Positions 25,540-30,507 are shown, numbered from the stretch's first letter. The stretch is 44,750 nt of DNA from Candidatus Fermentibacterota bacterium (GCA_003646025.1 QNDR01000009.1:1-44750); one strand, 5' to 3'. Numbers and translations are program-made. Notes: generated by a model from the sequence alone, not told the origin.

Positions 25540-27142
25540 GCCGCCTGATCACTTTCATAACCGTCTGCCTTACCTGGTTTCCGCCAGTAACAGAGAACAA
25601 CCCCACAGCAACAATCATTACAACAATCCCGGACAGGACCAGAGAGATAATCCCTGAAACAGTACCGGACAGCGTGTAATTTGTAACAATCGGCTTCAGG
25701 AACATGAGCAGAAGCAGTGTTCCTGCTCCGCTGAACACAAGTGCCAACCATGATCCCGCCCTGATTCCGGCCTTTCCTATTCTGCCTTTCAGATATCGTT
25801 TAAGAAGAAACAGGTTAACCATAGATGAAATACTGCTGGCAAGGGCCAGCCCTGCAATGGGTTCAGCAATACCGGTTTGCATAAACATGTATGTGAAAAT
25901 GCCGTTCAGAACTATGTTCAAACCCATACAACCTATGGCGATTTTCACTGGAGTTTTTGTATCCTTCAGAGCGTAGTAAACAGGGGCGGTTATCTTCACT
26001 GCAGCGTAAAAAACCATACCGATAGAGTAGAAGCGCAATGCAGCAGCAGTAAGTCTGAGGGAAGTGTCTGAAAATTCACCTCTGAAGAACATAACCCTTA
26101 CAACAGGTTCGGCCATTACAATCAGGTACAGTGCTGCAGGAAGCATTATTCCGGTAATCACCAGGGTGGAAAAACCAAGTGTCCGGCCTGCCTCATCGAG
26201 TTTGCCCATTGCTGTCTGTCTGCTGAGCGTTGGAAGCAGAGCAGTGGCGAGAGCGATTGCAAAAATACCCTGTGGAACCTGAGTTACACGCAGACCGTAA
26301 GACAGAGCTGCCACGCTGCCCTCTCCAAGAAGAGAAGCGATCAACTGATCAACCAGTATGTTAACCTCTGCAGCCAGAAGACCTATCAGAGCCGGGACAG
26401 CAAGCTTCAGGACCTTTCTGAACCCCGGATATTTCCAGTAGTAATCAAGGCGGAAGCTAATTCCTCTGCTTTTCATAAAAGGTACCTGTATCAGCAGTTG
26501 AAGAGCACCACCAACAAGTACACCTGTGGAATACGCCCATACCGGCATGTCAGCCTTCCACATCCCGGCAAGAACGAAAAGCCCCAGGAGAGCTGAAATG
26601 TTGAACAGTACAGGAGCGAGGGCAGGAGCCAGAAAGTGCCTGTGGCTGTTCAGAATGCCCATGCACACAGAGGCAATACCCACAAACAGTATGTATGGAA
26701 ACATCAGACGGAGAAGTTGTGTGGTAAGCTGTGTTTTCCCGGGGGTATCACTGAATCCTGGTGCAAATACATCTACCAGAACAGGAGCCAGAAGCATACC
26801 CAGCAGCACGACTGCCAGCAGAACGGTTCCGGTAAAAGTTAGTACTTTTCCTGCAAGTTTGCCGGCTTCTGCCTTCCCCTCTTTAAGCAGTGTTTCAGTG
26901 TAAGTCGGAACCAGAGCAGAGGCGACTGTAGCCTCACCAAAAAGACGACGGAGAATGTTGGGAATAATAAATGCTATGGTGAAAGCATCCGCAGCCATGC
27001 CGGTACCGAGAATTGCAGCCATCCCGACATCCCGTGCGAGACCCAGAACTCTGCTCACTGAAGTTAGCACACCAAGAAGACCTGCAGCCTTCGCTACACT
27101 TCTTCCCTCTTCACCAGGTGTACCAAGATCTTTGCTTTTCAC
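25529..27142 (-). CDS. murJ: Lipid II flippase MurJ
   Basis: MurJ (MviN) moves lipid II across the inner membrane for peptidoglycan synthesis. The 537-residue protein is almost wholly hydrophobic, with about 14 membrane segments. It carries the MVF-family N-terminus (SVSRVLGLARDVGMAAILGTG) and the following FIIPNILRRLFGEATVASALVPTY, the family's most conserved stretch. The GTG start at 27142 overlaps the upstream stop by one base (TAGTG). With the L,D-transpeptidase and M15 genes it adds to the wall-related content of the window. Confidence 0.96.
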   Translation of the reverse strand: MKSKDLGTPGEEGRSVAKAAGLLGVLTSVSRVLGLARDVGMAAILGTGMAADAFTIAFIIPNILRRLFGEATVASALVPTYTETLLKEGKAEAGKLAGKVLTFTGTVLLAVVLLGMLLAPVLVDVFAPGFSDTPGKTQLTTQLLRLMFPYILFVGIASVCMGILNSHRHFLAPALAPVLFNISALLGLFVLAGMWKADMPVWAYSTGVLVGGALQLLIQVPFMKSRGISFRLDYYWKYPGFRKVLKLAVPALIGLLAAEVNILVDQLIASLLGEGSVAALSYGLRVTQVPQGIFAIALATALLPTLSRQTAMGKLDEAGRTLGFSTLVITGIMLPAALYLIVMAEPVVRVMFFRGEFSDTSLRLTAAALRFYSIGMVFYAAVKITAPVYYALKDTKTPVKIAIGCMGLNIVLNGIFTYMFMQTGIAEPIAGLALASSISSMVNLFLLKRYLKGRIGKAGIRAGSWLALVFSGAGTLLLLMFLKPIVTNYTLSGTVSGIISLVLSGIVVMIVAVGLFSVTGGNQVRQTVMKVIRRRDS

Positions 27143-27828
27143 TAAAAACTACCGGTGGCTTTGATGGATGCCCATGTTACAGAAGACAACTGCTGTTGTT
27201 CAGCAGGTGCAGACACGGCAACATCATCAAAGATACTGCTCCACGGAATCCTGCCGTAGCCTCCTGCAAACAGGCCCAGAGATCCGCCCTCTCCCTGCAT
27301 GTTATCCACGGCTGTCAGCATCCATTCTTCCGGTTCCTGGTCTATGGGTCCGTCCCATATTCTTCCCCTGATGGAATTACCCTCCACCTCAAGACGAATC
27401 CAGTATTGTGAGCCTGCAGTCAGCGTGAAGCTGCACTGATCCATCAAAATAGAGGGTCCAGTATCCTTTTTTCTTTCCAGGAGAATTCTTGAGGAATAAG
27501 GCTTAACAACCATGCGGTAGTACCACTGATCATCACCTGTATACCTTGCAATAAGACCACTTTCCATGCCGCACTCCATAACCAGACTGCTGAGCACAGA
27601 GTAATCAGCGGTACTCATCACGCCAGACTGATCTCCGTTCAGTGATTTTCCCTGCCCGCGGCTGCCCCTGGCGTGAATAAAGTATCTACCATTAATCACC
27701 TGGAAAGAAGCAGATCCCAGATGTTCCCATCCATCGTCATTGCCGTCGTTAAAATCGTCACTGAACAGCAGTTCGCCGAAACACATCTGGACAACAATAA
27801 TCACAGAAAACACAGGGATATTCTTCAC
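27142..27828 (-). CDS. Secreted LamG-like protein with C-terminal TWASIKAT-type motif
   Basis: The GTG at 27828, preceded by GGAG, gives a 228-residue protein with a signal peptide (VKNIPVFSVIIVVQMCFG). A beta-sandwich resembling LamG/DUF1080 domains follows: LLFSDDFNDGNDDGWEHLG, GLIARYTGDDQWYYRMVVKPYSS, QYWIRLEVEGNSIRGRIWDG and GGSLGLFAGGYGRI. After a short linker (APAEQQQLSSV) the chain ends TWASIKATGSF. Two other secreted proteins within 3.4 kb end almost identically, so the tail is probably a sorting or attachment signal rather than part of the fold. It is cotranscribed with murJ (1-base overlap). Confidence 0.8.
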   Translation of the reverse strand: MKNIPVFSVIIVVQMCFGELLFSDDFNDGNDDGWEHLGSASFQVINGRYFIHARGSRGQGKSLNGDQSGVMSTADYSVLSSLVMECGMESGLIARYTGDDQWYYRMVVKPYSSRILLERKKDTGPSILMDQCSFTLTAGSQYWIRLEVEGNSIRGRIWDGPIDQEPEEWMLTAVDNMQGEGGSLGLFAGGYGRIPWSSIFDDVAVSAPAEQQQLSSVTWASIKATGSF

Positions 27829-27923
27829 TGCTTCTCCATTCGAAAGCCACACACAGGTACGAAGATAACATGAACCGATTCAAGCGTCATGAACTGCGAA
27901 GGTCTGCTGCTGTTACACTGGAA

Positions 27924-28331
27924 TCAGCGGGTATTGACGCGCCACTCCTCTTCGCCTGTCTGGAGCAGACTCAGACCGTTCCGCTGAAGAACAGTATCGA
28001 ACCACCGGAGTGTCTTGTCAAAATCGTCAAGAAGAATCTCCCTGCCGTCTTCTGTGGCAATACTCAGCGTTCTTGTGTTCCTTGCATAGTGCCCCCTGGA
28101 AAGCTTGATTTCGTTCAACGGAAAACTCACCGGTTTTCCCTTGACCAGAAATCGTACAAGACTCATAAATAAGTACAGTGCAGCCATTATACCGTAATCG
28201 AAATAAACGAATCTCTGATCGGTAATAATGCACCGGGTGTATGCCGGAAACTTTACCCTGCTACCCTGTAATGTAAATCTTTTTGTATCTGTAAAGATTT
28301 TCTCTCCCTGATCTATTTCAAATCCCGCCAT
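27924..28331 (-). CDS. Small PH-like domain protein with a membrane segment
   Basis: The 135-residue protein has features of bacterial PH domains. A first strand pair (KIFTDTKRFTLQGSRVKFPA) leads to CIITDQRFVYFDYG. A hydrophobic stretch (IMAALYLFMSLVRFLV) follows, then KPVSFPLNEIKLSRG, RTLSIATEDGREILL and a C-terminal helix (FDKTLRWFDTVLQRNG). No catalytic residues are visible. It is a monocistronic-looking gene between two accessory regions. The family call rests on the pattern of strands, not on a strict motif. Confidence 0.6.
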   Translation of the reverse strand: MAGFEIDQGEKIFTDTKRFTLQGSRVKFPAYTRCIITDQRFVYFDYGIMAALYLFMSLVRFLVKGKPVSFPLNEIKLSRGHYARNTRTLSIATEDGREILLDDFDKTLRWFDTVLQRNGLSLLQTGEEEWRVNTR

Positions 28332-28460
28332 AGTGTCCCTCCAGAAAAGTTGAAGCTCGACTGCCGATTATAAGGAACAGAAAAGAAAACTGGAAGTACC
28401 ACGCCCGGTAACCACCAGAAATCTCATAAGCAGCAGAATACCTGTCGTTTACACCTAAAA

Positions 28461-28955
28461 CTGTATCTGATCATTTCCGAATCTGTCAGAAAGTACGGAG
28501 GTTACCTTCATCATGTAGAAGCAACACTTTTCTGAGCGGAAACAGGAGCTTGCAGATTGTCTGTATAAATACGGAAGTGTCTGCGAGTTGACAGAAGACC
28601 ATTCCCGGGCAGTCAATTACTACGAAAGAGCTCTCGACTGTAATCCGGATATTCTGCTTTCAGGGAAGATAATCCTGAGTCTGGCAGAGATTCATTACAA
28701 CAGCGGGGAGCTGGAAAAAGGTCTTGAACTGGTTAGAGATATCGAACACAGACTGAAGGATTTAAATGTGGAAAACAAAATTCTTCAACTGAAAATCTCC
28801 GCCTACAGATCGTGGTGCCACTGCATTTCCGGAAAAATGAAATGAATGACTTGGAAGCAGAAACGTATCTCCGGAAAGCAGCTGACCTGTACCGTAAGCT
28901 GAAACTCACAGACAAAGTCAAAGAATGCGAACAAAACAAAAAAGCCGGGACCTGA
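28461..28955 (+). pseudogene. Decayed cyclase/TPR-type gene with internal deletion and frameshifts
   Basis: Three short reading frames appear to be pieces of one old gene. From 28461 one frame reads ISESVRKYGGYLHH then VEATLF, resembling the ISESV-KYGGYIDKFEGD block of class III adenylate/guanylate cyclases. It stops at 28533. A second frame (28531-28845) carries TPR-like helices (HSRAVNYYERALDCNPDILL, LAEIHYNSGELEKGLELVRD). The third (28842-28955) continues in a shifted frame (EAETYLRKAADLYRKLKL). Proteins with an N-terminal cyclase and C-terminal TPRs are known, so the middle may have been deleted. The TPR part is clear; the cyclase part is tentative. A 28588-28845 mini-gene being functional is less likely. 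Confidence 0.5.
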
Positions 28956-28969
28956 TGCCCCGGCTTTTT
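28939..28969. terminator. Bidirectional intrinsic terminator
   Basis: An AAAAAGCCGGG / CCCGGCTTTTT stem with a 9-base loop has a T-run on both strands. It can end transcription from the plus-strand TPR remnant and from the minus-strand gene at 28984-29580. On the plus strand the stem overlaps the last codons of the remnant. Confidence 0.85.
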
Positions 28970-28983
28970 GTTTGTAAACACTG

Positions 28984-29580
28984 TCAGAAAGTGGCTTTTA
29001 TAGCTGCCCATGTGTGAGGGGCAAGAGCCATATCGTAGTCGGGAGTGCGTATTTCAGCGCCTTCCGGTGCTGTTATGGTCATGTCGTCCACCCACACGGT
29101 ATCACCGGCTTCAGAATAGGTTCTTACCTGTATAACAAGCCCGGTATGCCCGCCTTCAACTGTCCATGTGTACTCTGCCAGATCCCAGCCGGTACCTGGT
29201 CCGTAATCACTCTGTCCACTTGCGCTGCCTCCGTAGTTGTAGATGTCGCCGGGATCGTCGTTCCATCCACCCCAGATTCTGCATGATGGTGCAGCAGCAG
29301 GCGTTACATCGTATCGCCAGAAAGATGCCGTTACCTGATCACCATCTGAAAGACCCACAACCCAGGCCACGTATGCCTGTGGAGTTCCTGATGCGGCATC
29401 ATCCACAACCTTGAGAGACTGTGAACCTCCGTGAATCGGGTCTGTATCAATTGTACAGATAATGTCGCCATAGTTTCCCAGAATAGTTTGAGTACCTTCC
29501 CAGCCGTATGTTTCAGTGTTTTCTGCAAGAGCCAGCTGCGCCAGCACAAAAAGCAACAGAACAAACAGTACATTCTTCAT
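28984..29580 (-). CDS. Secreted beta-sandwich protein with C-terminal TWAAIKATF motif
   Basis: The 198-residue protein has a clear signal peptide (MKNVLFVLLLFVLAQLALAE). One galactose-binding/CBM-like jelly-roll follows: GGSQSLKVVDD, AYVAWVVGLSDGDQVTASFW, then GWDLAEYTWTVEGGHTGLVIQVRTYSEAGDTVWVDD, the typical edge of such carbohydrate-binding folds. The chain ends HTWAAIKATF, shared with two neighbours. It has its own promoter and is followed by a strong terminator, so it is a single-gene unit. Its function, apart from probable extracellular binding, is unknown. Confidence 0.8.
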   Translation of the reverse strand: MKNVLFVLLLFVLAQLALAENTETYGWEGTQTILGNYGDIICTIDTDPIHGGSQSLKVVDDAASGTPQAYVAWVVGLSDGDQVTASFWRYDVTPAAAPSCRIWGGWNDDPGDIYNYGGSASGQSDYGPGTGWDLAEYTWTVEGGHTGLVIQVRTYSEAGDTVWVDDMTITAPEGAEIRTPDYDMALAPHTWAAIKATF

Positions 29581-29626
29581 CGTTTCCCTCTTTCCTGTAA
29601 GAGCCGGTAACCTTTTCCGCAGACCT

Positions 29627-29654
29627 ATAATAACACGAAATATGATTTCAGCAA
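29627..29654 (-). promoter_or_regulatory. Promoter candidate for the 28984-29580 gene
   Basis: On the minus strand TTGCTG and TATTAT are separated by 16 bases, about 47 bases before the ATG. This is a moderate sigma-70-type match. Confidence 0.4.
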
Positions 29655-29676
29655 GAACTGCTTAATTCATACACTA

Positions 29677-29705
29677 TTGACCCAAATGTCATAACTGCTT
29701 ATCTA
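29677..29705 (+). promoter_or_regulatory. Promoter candidate for the 29734-30507 gene
   Basis: TTGACC and TATCTA are 17 bases apart and lie about 28 bases before the ATG at 29734, which has an AGGGG Shine-Dalgarno. It is arranged divergently from the promoter candidate of the 28984-29580 gene. Confidence 0.5.
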
Positions 29706-29733
29706 TTGACTGCACAACACGAAAGGGGTTTTC

Positions 29734-30507
29734 ATGAAACTAATGGTATTTGTCTTCATCGTGTGTGTCGGCGTCAGTTTTGCGGACTATCAGATAGTCG
29801 CAACTTTTGATGCCCCGGACACGAACATTTCCGGGCTCGGTTTCGGAGATGGTTCTCTGTGGGCTGTGGACGGAGTTACCGAATACGCCTATCAGCTCGA
29901 TCCCTCTACAGGAGCGGTTCAGAATTCCTGGTACTGTGCCAATTCAAGCAGAGTTCCAACCGGCCTCACTTATGCCAACAGTACGGTCTATATCATTATG
30001 ACAACAATGCCCAGCCAGAGCGATTCATACTGCTACAGGTACAACAATTCAGGAAGCTATCAGGGTCAATTTGACCTGGACTGTTGAGGAAGCGATCTCG
30101 ACCGGGAGGTAACCGGTCTCGCAACAGGAAACAGCAAAATTTACGGTGCAGGAGTAGACGCTCAGACCATGAAGGAATGTCTGGAAAAATACAACTATAC
30201 CGGGTCCCTGCTGACCGGCCCCGAGTTCATGGTTGAGCTGGGAATAGACTTCTACGATATTGCCTACAAGGACAACAAGTGGTGGTATGCCTGCAACGAT
30301 ACAGAATTTCCCATTCGTGTTTACAACGGAAGTGGAGCCCTGGTTGAATCAATCAGTTCATCAGTTCTTCCAGCTGCCCACGGTATGACTTTTGACAGCG
30401 AAGGCTATCTCTGGGTGAGCAATATGAACACCGACGAGATATACAAAATTGCTGATGTTTCCGCGCTTTCAAGAGCTACATGGGCATCGATAAAGGCAAC
30501 TTTCTAG
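29734..30507 (+). CDS. Secreted propeller-like protein with an in-frame TGA and C-terminal TWASIKATF motif
   Basis: One frame runs from an ATG with a signal peptide (MKLMVFVFIVCVGVSFA) to a C-terminal RATWASIKATF, interrupted only by TGA at codon 118 (30085-30087, context FDLDC-TGA-GSDLD). Both sides read as one beta-propeller-like protein: GLGFGDGSLWAVDG and PTGLTYANSTVYI before the stop; EVTGLATGNSKIYGAG, FYDIAYKDNKWWYACND and HGMTFDSEGYLWVSN after it. Read through, it has 257 residues. TGA is the normal stop for neighbouring genes, so general recoding is excluded. Either this is a fresh nonsense mutation or the TGA encodes selenocysteine; a SECIS-like hairpin follows at the expected distance. 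If the stop is real, the 3' half is dead. Confidence 0.6.
30085..30118 (+). promoter_or_regulatory. TGA followed by a SECIS-like hairpin
   Basis: After the in-frame TGA come 12 bases, then a perfect 6-bp stem GACCGG/CCGGTC closing a 7-base loop GAGGTAA. Bacterial SECIS elements have a short stem about 11 bases after TGA, with a GGU-type apical loop bound by SelB. The resemblance is visible, but short hairpins also arise by chance. Confidence 0.35.

Follow-up and report, generated by a model that had tools for sequence, protein, structure and literature searches.

Three secreted proteins encoded close together in a 44,750-nucleotide stretch of Candidatus Fermentibacterota DNA, an entire contig that is referred to as "the window" in this study, terminate in almost the same short peptide. 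What is this tail for? Envelope systems such as exosortase were first found via C-terminal sorting tags in sequence, and a tag common to several largely uncultured phyla would allow surface or exported proteins to be predicted from genomes. The concrete question posed by the tail is which component reads it.

Three carriers in the window

The first carrier, a secreted protein of 236 amino acids with a GTG start, occupies 27142..27852 on the minus strand, and its tail, TWASIKATGSF, lies at 27145..27177. The second, a secreted protein of 198 amino acids, occupies 28984..29580 on the same strand; in its tail, TWAAIKATF (28987..29013), the W, I, K and F are invariant in 15 homologues. The third, on the plus strand (29734..30507), consists of a signal peptide and a β-propeller, 257 amino acids via UGA readthrough, with the tail TWASIKATF at 30478..30504. 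Translation yielded all three endings as a sequence-only reading of the window had reported them. However, that reading treated the third carrier as a simple ORF and did not see an in-frame TGA at 30085-30087. As this TGA divides the frame 29734-30507, carrier 3 is a single chain only if the UGA is read.

Outside the tail, pairwise blastp between the three proteins gave only E ≥ 0.4, consistent with the earlier claim that they are otherwise unrelated. Two of the three folds claimed for them were also supported. An AlphaFold2 model of carrier 2, aligned with 14 homologues, contains a confident CBM-like jelly roll, which Foldseek matched to CBM22, CBM4 and CBM16, followed by a linker and tail of low confidence (pLDDT about 50). 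As the confident jelly roll stops at about residue 180, the tail is outside the domain. Foldseek likewise identified carrier 3 as a β-propeller, with glutaminyl cyclases and NHL domains being nearest. The LamG-like fold proposed for carrier 1, an ORF with no Pfam match, was not confirmed.

Carrier 3 as a probable selenoprotein

As the in-frame UGA is conserved, a SECIS-like hairpin lies downstream of it and the host genome encodes a tRNA-Sec (G000:C130:242-334), carrier 3 is very probably a secreted, tail-bearing β-propeller selenoprotein, with Sec insertion predicted from the sequence. The UGA (30085..30087, plus strand; context DC-U-GSDLD) is retained in 7/7 family members found (loci beyond the window: L070, L072, L203, L213 and L202). 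Six close members, the window gene included, share the context LDC-UGA-GSDLD[RQ]EVTGLA, in which C and U are vicinal; the distant homologue L202 has C-G-G-UGA-G, a CxxU arrangement.

The putative SECIS (30092..30122, plus strand) is a 31-nt hairpin with the apical loop GAGGUAA that begins 4 nt past the UGA. Its structure is kept in the family, all 10 pairs being retained in six sequences with one compensated pair and one G-U change. The hairpin has no match in Rfam, and in folding energy it surpasses shuffled sequences only moderately (z −1.5). Among alignment columns with identical residues, the same codon was used in four genes at 8 of 12 columns around the hairpin versus 20 of 115 elsewhere (p 0.0006).

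Recurrence of the tail in the host genome and beyond

The host genome (2.46 Mb in 136 contigs) belongs to the Fermentibacteria/Aegiribacteria kin. The codon pattern for TW[AG]xIKA gave nine matches in it, all situated 2-4 residues from a stop, versus none for the reversed pattern. The shorter pattern, W[AG]xIK, gave 27 matches versus nine in the control, and 20 of the 27 were located 3-5 codons before a stop, with the other seven elsewhere (binomial p ~1e-12); two entries among the listed matches are duplicates, owing to loci that overlap. Combining these matches with a stop-anchored pattern, we arrive at about 25 carriers for the host. The motif search suggested by the sequence-only reading has thus placed the tail on many further exported proteins of the host. 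At the conserved positions the codons are mixed (ATC 7, ATA 9 and ATT 3 for I; AAG 12 and AAA 10 for K), and because they vary in this way, selection acts on the protein, as had been argued from the three window copies. A DNA repeat as the source of the tails is ruled out by the same free variation of codons.

Among the relatives, which bear the names Fermentibacteria, Aegiribacteria and Sabulitectum in a scan of named genomes, the pattern W[AG]xIKxxF-stop gave 313 matches distributed over 30/30 genomes of the order (1 to 24 each; reversed control, 1), and none in 10 outgroup genomes. Among the matches listed, the tail was also present in Coatesbacteria, Poribacteria, Eisenbacteria, one Gemmatimonadaceae bin and Rhodothermia, where its carriers are again mostly exported and have unrelated bodies. 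Outside the order, W-G-x-I-K-x-x-[FY] was counted, with the C-terminal position verified for part of the matches only. Two Coatesbacteria genomes had 26 and 41 matches, two Eisenbacteria had 17 and 6, and the Poribacteria had 4-14 each; the Gemmatimonadaceae bin gave 5 and every Rhodothermia-like genome 1. The control gave 2 matches in total across the tail-bearing genomes of these groups. In Rhodothermia and one Bacteroidetes bin (L155, L187 and L137), the single tail per genome is found on a common orthologous exported protein ending ALRRTWGSIKAMF; as there is one orthologous protein per genome, these matches alone do not prove that a tag system is present there. The carrier family in a tail-bearing "Syntrophaceae" bin (L156) is one that typifies Fermentibacteria; this bin is probably mis-assigned.

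A tail on many unrelated exported proteins

In total, 206 tail-bearing ORFs were gathered, and blastp of the pre-tail part sorted 202 of them into 43 clusters. Some of these are big families (45 and 34 members), as might be expected if the tail were simply the end of a single domain family, inherited by common descent, or a product of chance. However, no similarity is detectable between clusters upstream of the tail, the tail is spread over several phyla, and the folded domain of carrier 2 finishes before it. Common ancestry or chance is therefore extremely improbable; the tail as the end of a shared domain was rejected on the basis of the 43 clusters and the position of the carrier 2 domain, and the window proteins are not recent paralogues. 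Carrier bodies include CBM-like, LTD, Laminin_G_3, CBM9 and other domains, and the majority belong to no family.

Signal peptides, called with a strict rule-based test, were present in 106 of 164 carriers versus 78 of 613 other long ORFs (65% vs 13%; odds ratio 12.5), the enrichment that the sequence-only reading had proposed to look for. The tail consensus, L-E-x-x-[TS]-W-[GA]-x-I-K-[AT]-x-F-COOH, spans about 13-15 residues, with cluster-weighted frequencies of 42/22% for [AS], 53% for L, 40% for E, 96% for [TS], 98% for I and 84% for the terminal [FY]; the conservation of W, of the small residue [GA] and of K is built in, as these were set by the search rule. In the cluster-weighted consensus, K is followed by [ATNS], any residue and [FY]; mostly 3-5 residues follow K, and 0-5 do so over all carriers.

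In one Eisenbacteria carrier, a choice-of-anchor E domain (E 7e-39) ends directly upstream of the tail. As the NCBIfam naming implies, choice-of-anchor domains occur with differing C-terminal anchoring signals, and other lineages place sorting signals directly after such a domain. This placement, together with the position of the tail outside the folded domain of carrier 2, its C-terminal recurrence on 43 unrelated clusters, the signal-peptide enrichment and the multi-phylum spread, makes it highly likely that the tail is a real, widespread C-terminal targeting signal.

The sequence-only reading had gone further, suggesting a sorting, attachment or processing tag of an undescribed system. A tag on exported proteins that are not paralogues is what we found, but no protease or sortase-like gene was found at the carrier loci, and the tag may belong to a branch of the type IX secretion system (T9SS). 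No gene family adjoins carriers of different clusters; a dedicated neighbour gene was rejected, as neighbours recur only through conserved gene order around one and the same carrier family. Tags read in trans usually have no linked gene.

Shape of the tail

The hydrophobic moment of the tail exceeds that of shuffled sequences at 165 degrees (0.476 vs 0.326) and not at 100 degrees (0.323 vs 0.330), a β-like periodicity. AlphaFold2 draws a helix in the carrier 2 tail; this helix was not upheld, given its pLDDT of about 50 and the β-like moment. As the model is helix-like and the moment strand-like, we do not claim a secondary structure for the tail.

The periodicity, the terminal F and the hydrophobic residue at −4 recall the outer-membrane C-terminal β-signal, and the tail might mimic this signal and engage BAM or a PDZ-type periplasmic protease. 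The true β-signal, however, occurs on barrels and is hydrophobic at −2, −4 and −6, whereas the carriers are soluble folds. Barrel C-termini in these genomes (SprA, ...LSVTINF; PorV family, ...KYSLTLQF) contain no TWGxIK, and their residue at −2 is bulky and hydrophobic, while position −2 of the tail is mostly A, T, N or S, chiefly A or T. We regard such mimicry as unlikely. Somewhat less probable still is a non-covalent docking peptide that would tether small exported proteins to a common surface scaffold without any role in transport. Docking would suit a short C-terminal peptide that has no cleavage motif, and the carriers have small binding-type folds (CBM-like, propellers, LTD, Laminin_G_3); no scaffold was identified, however.

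The type IX secretion system in tail-bearing genomes

The host genome possesses a real T9SS. It encodes SprA/Sov (TIGR04189, 418 bits with a cut-off of 200), two tandem PorU-like sortases scoring just under the curated cut-off, 15 C25 matches and 9 PorV-family matches, and type A C-terminal domains (CTDs) are present on C25 peptidases. As these proteases carry type A CTDs while the carriers match no CTD model (40 representative carriers searched), the tail would constitute a second class of C-terminal signal. A further signal/shuttle pair is plausible, since type B signals have their own shuttle proteins (PMC12618676).

With the host SprA as query, SprA was found in 24 of the 25 order members examined. 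Of 15 tail-bearing genomes belonging to other groups, 13 also had SprA, some of these matches being weak. G013 (98% complete) has neither SprA nor the adjacent ATPase gene that served as query, and it has a single tail-pattern match versus 7-24 in its congeners G017 and G019-G023. The co-occurrence with SprA, together with this SprA-less and nearly tail-less genome, hints at a possible link between the tail and T9SS. As G013 retains PorU-like, PorV-family and type A CTD genes, its missing SprA may reflect an assembly gap. SprA is not sufficient for tails, as three outgroup genomes (G030, G032 and G035) have it but gave no match to the F-stop form. Conversely, G049, a possibly incomplete bin, has seven tail matches, with SprA not found.

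Two GspE/PilB-like ATPase genes adjoin SprA in two genera (L099, G000:C48; L283, G017:C13); the SprA-adjacent copy was not found in G013. C25 (gingipain/PorU-family) peptidases are greatly expanded, with 10-33 matches per 1.8-3.7 Mb genome in G000-G029. The SprA of G011 (G011:C7:118226-123770) runs over several frames with an internal TGA, due either to sequence errors or to a decaying gene.

How the tail might be read

We propose the following chain. A carrier would be exported by Sec through its ordinary N-terminal signal peptide, a step with strong sequence evidence, and would then fold in the periplasm, with a flexible linker holding the tail out at the free C-terminal end, as the AlphaFold2 model of one carrier, with its low-confidence tail, suggests. 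A receptor encoded elsewhere might recognise W, G/A, I, K and the terminal aromatic residue, to judge from their conservation. Most likely, this receptor would be part of the outer-membrane branch of the host T9SS, for example a PorV-family shuttle paralogue, and the carriers would end up on the cell surface or be released from it, forming a cargo class in addition to the one with type A CTDs. The host SprA, PorU-like pair, type A CTDs and PorV family, the SprA co-occurrence and G013 count in favour of the T9SS branch. The tail-less SprA-positive outgroups, the T9SS genes kept by G013, G049, the length of the tail, the lack of a CTD motif and the lack of a neighbour gene count against it. We advance the whole chain tentatively, as a plausible reading with a probability somewhat short of even. 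If the tail is a T9SS cargo signal, it would be much shorter than any other known to us and would offer a minimal ligand for structural work.

Alternatively, the tail might be recognised by a receptor of its own, an envelope protein or an enzyme with no relation to T9SS, and thus belong to a separate system for sorting or attachment that is as yet undescribed; such a system would resemble the exosortase and sortase systems, with the short tail replacing the membrane span. That the tail is distinct from every CTD type and covered by no family model, that SprA-positive outgroups lack it and that G049 has tails with SprA undetected all favour this possibility. However, no candidate receptor was found, and SprA is present in most tail-bearing genomes. 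Such a system is possible, though less likely than not, and the same holds for its broader form, in which TWGxIK tails would mark an undescribed sorting or anchoring system beside T9SS, common to Fermentibacteria, Coatesbacteria, Eisenbacteria, Poribacteria and Gemmatimonadota. We give similar odds to a T9SS branch and to an independent system.

Comparison with known C-terminal signals

No family model covers the tail, and no published description was found, the motif strings retrieving only unrelated papers; a search for literature on sorting signals of the Fermentibacteria phylum also found nothing. Published T9SS signals are about 70 amino acids long in type A and about 100 or more in types B and C (PMC10202324), and specialised PorP/SprF shuttles recognise the type B CTD (PMC12618676). 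Like the tail, the type A CTD (TIGR04183 / PF18962) is a C-terminal signal on Sec-exported proteins of many folds, and both occur in the same genomes. It is, however, a domain with motifs B, D and E, whereas the tail, at about 13-15 residues, is much shorter, as the sequence-only reading had observed, matches no model and is located on other proteins. Types B and C are likewise alternative C-terminal signals, type B often being gene-linked to its shuttle, while the tail is short and unlinked. None of the motifs of type A, B or C CTDs recurs in the tail.

The listed tails have neither an LPXTG-like motif nor the span and basic tail of sortase substrates. The PEP-CTERM, GlyGly-CTERM and MYXO-CTERM tags are tripartite (motif, transmembrane span and basic cluster), whereas the tail, as first noticed in the window, has no hydrophobic span and no basic cluster, there being so few residues after K. 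In their general design, however, the PEP-CTERM/exosortase, GlyGly-CTERM/rhombosortase and MYXO-CTERM/myxosortase systems resemble what is seen here: in each, dozens of exported proteins that are otherwise unrelated end in the same kind of short tag, and the machinery is encoded in trans.
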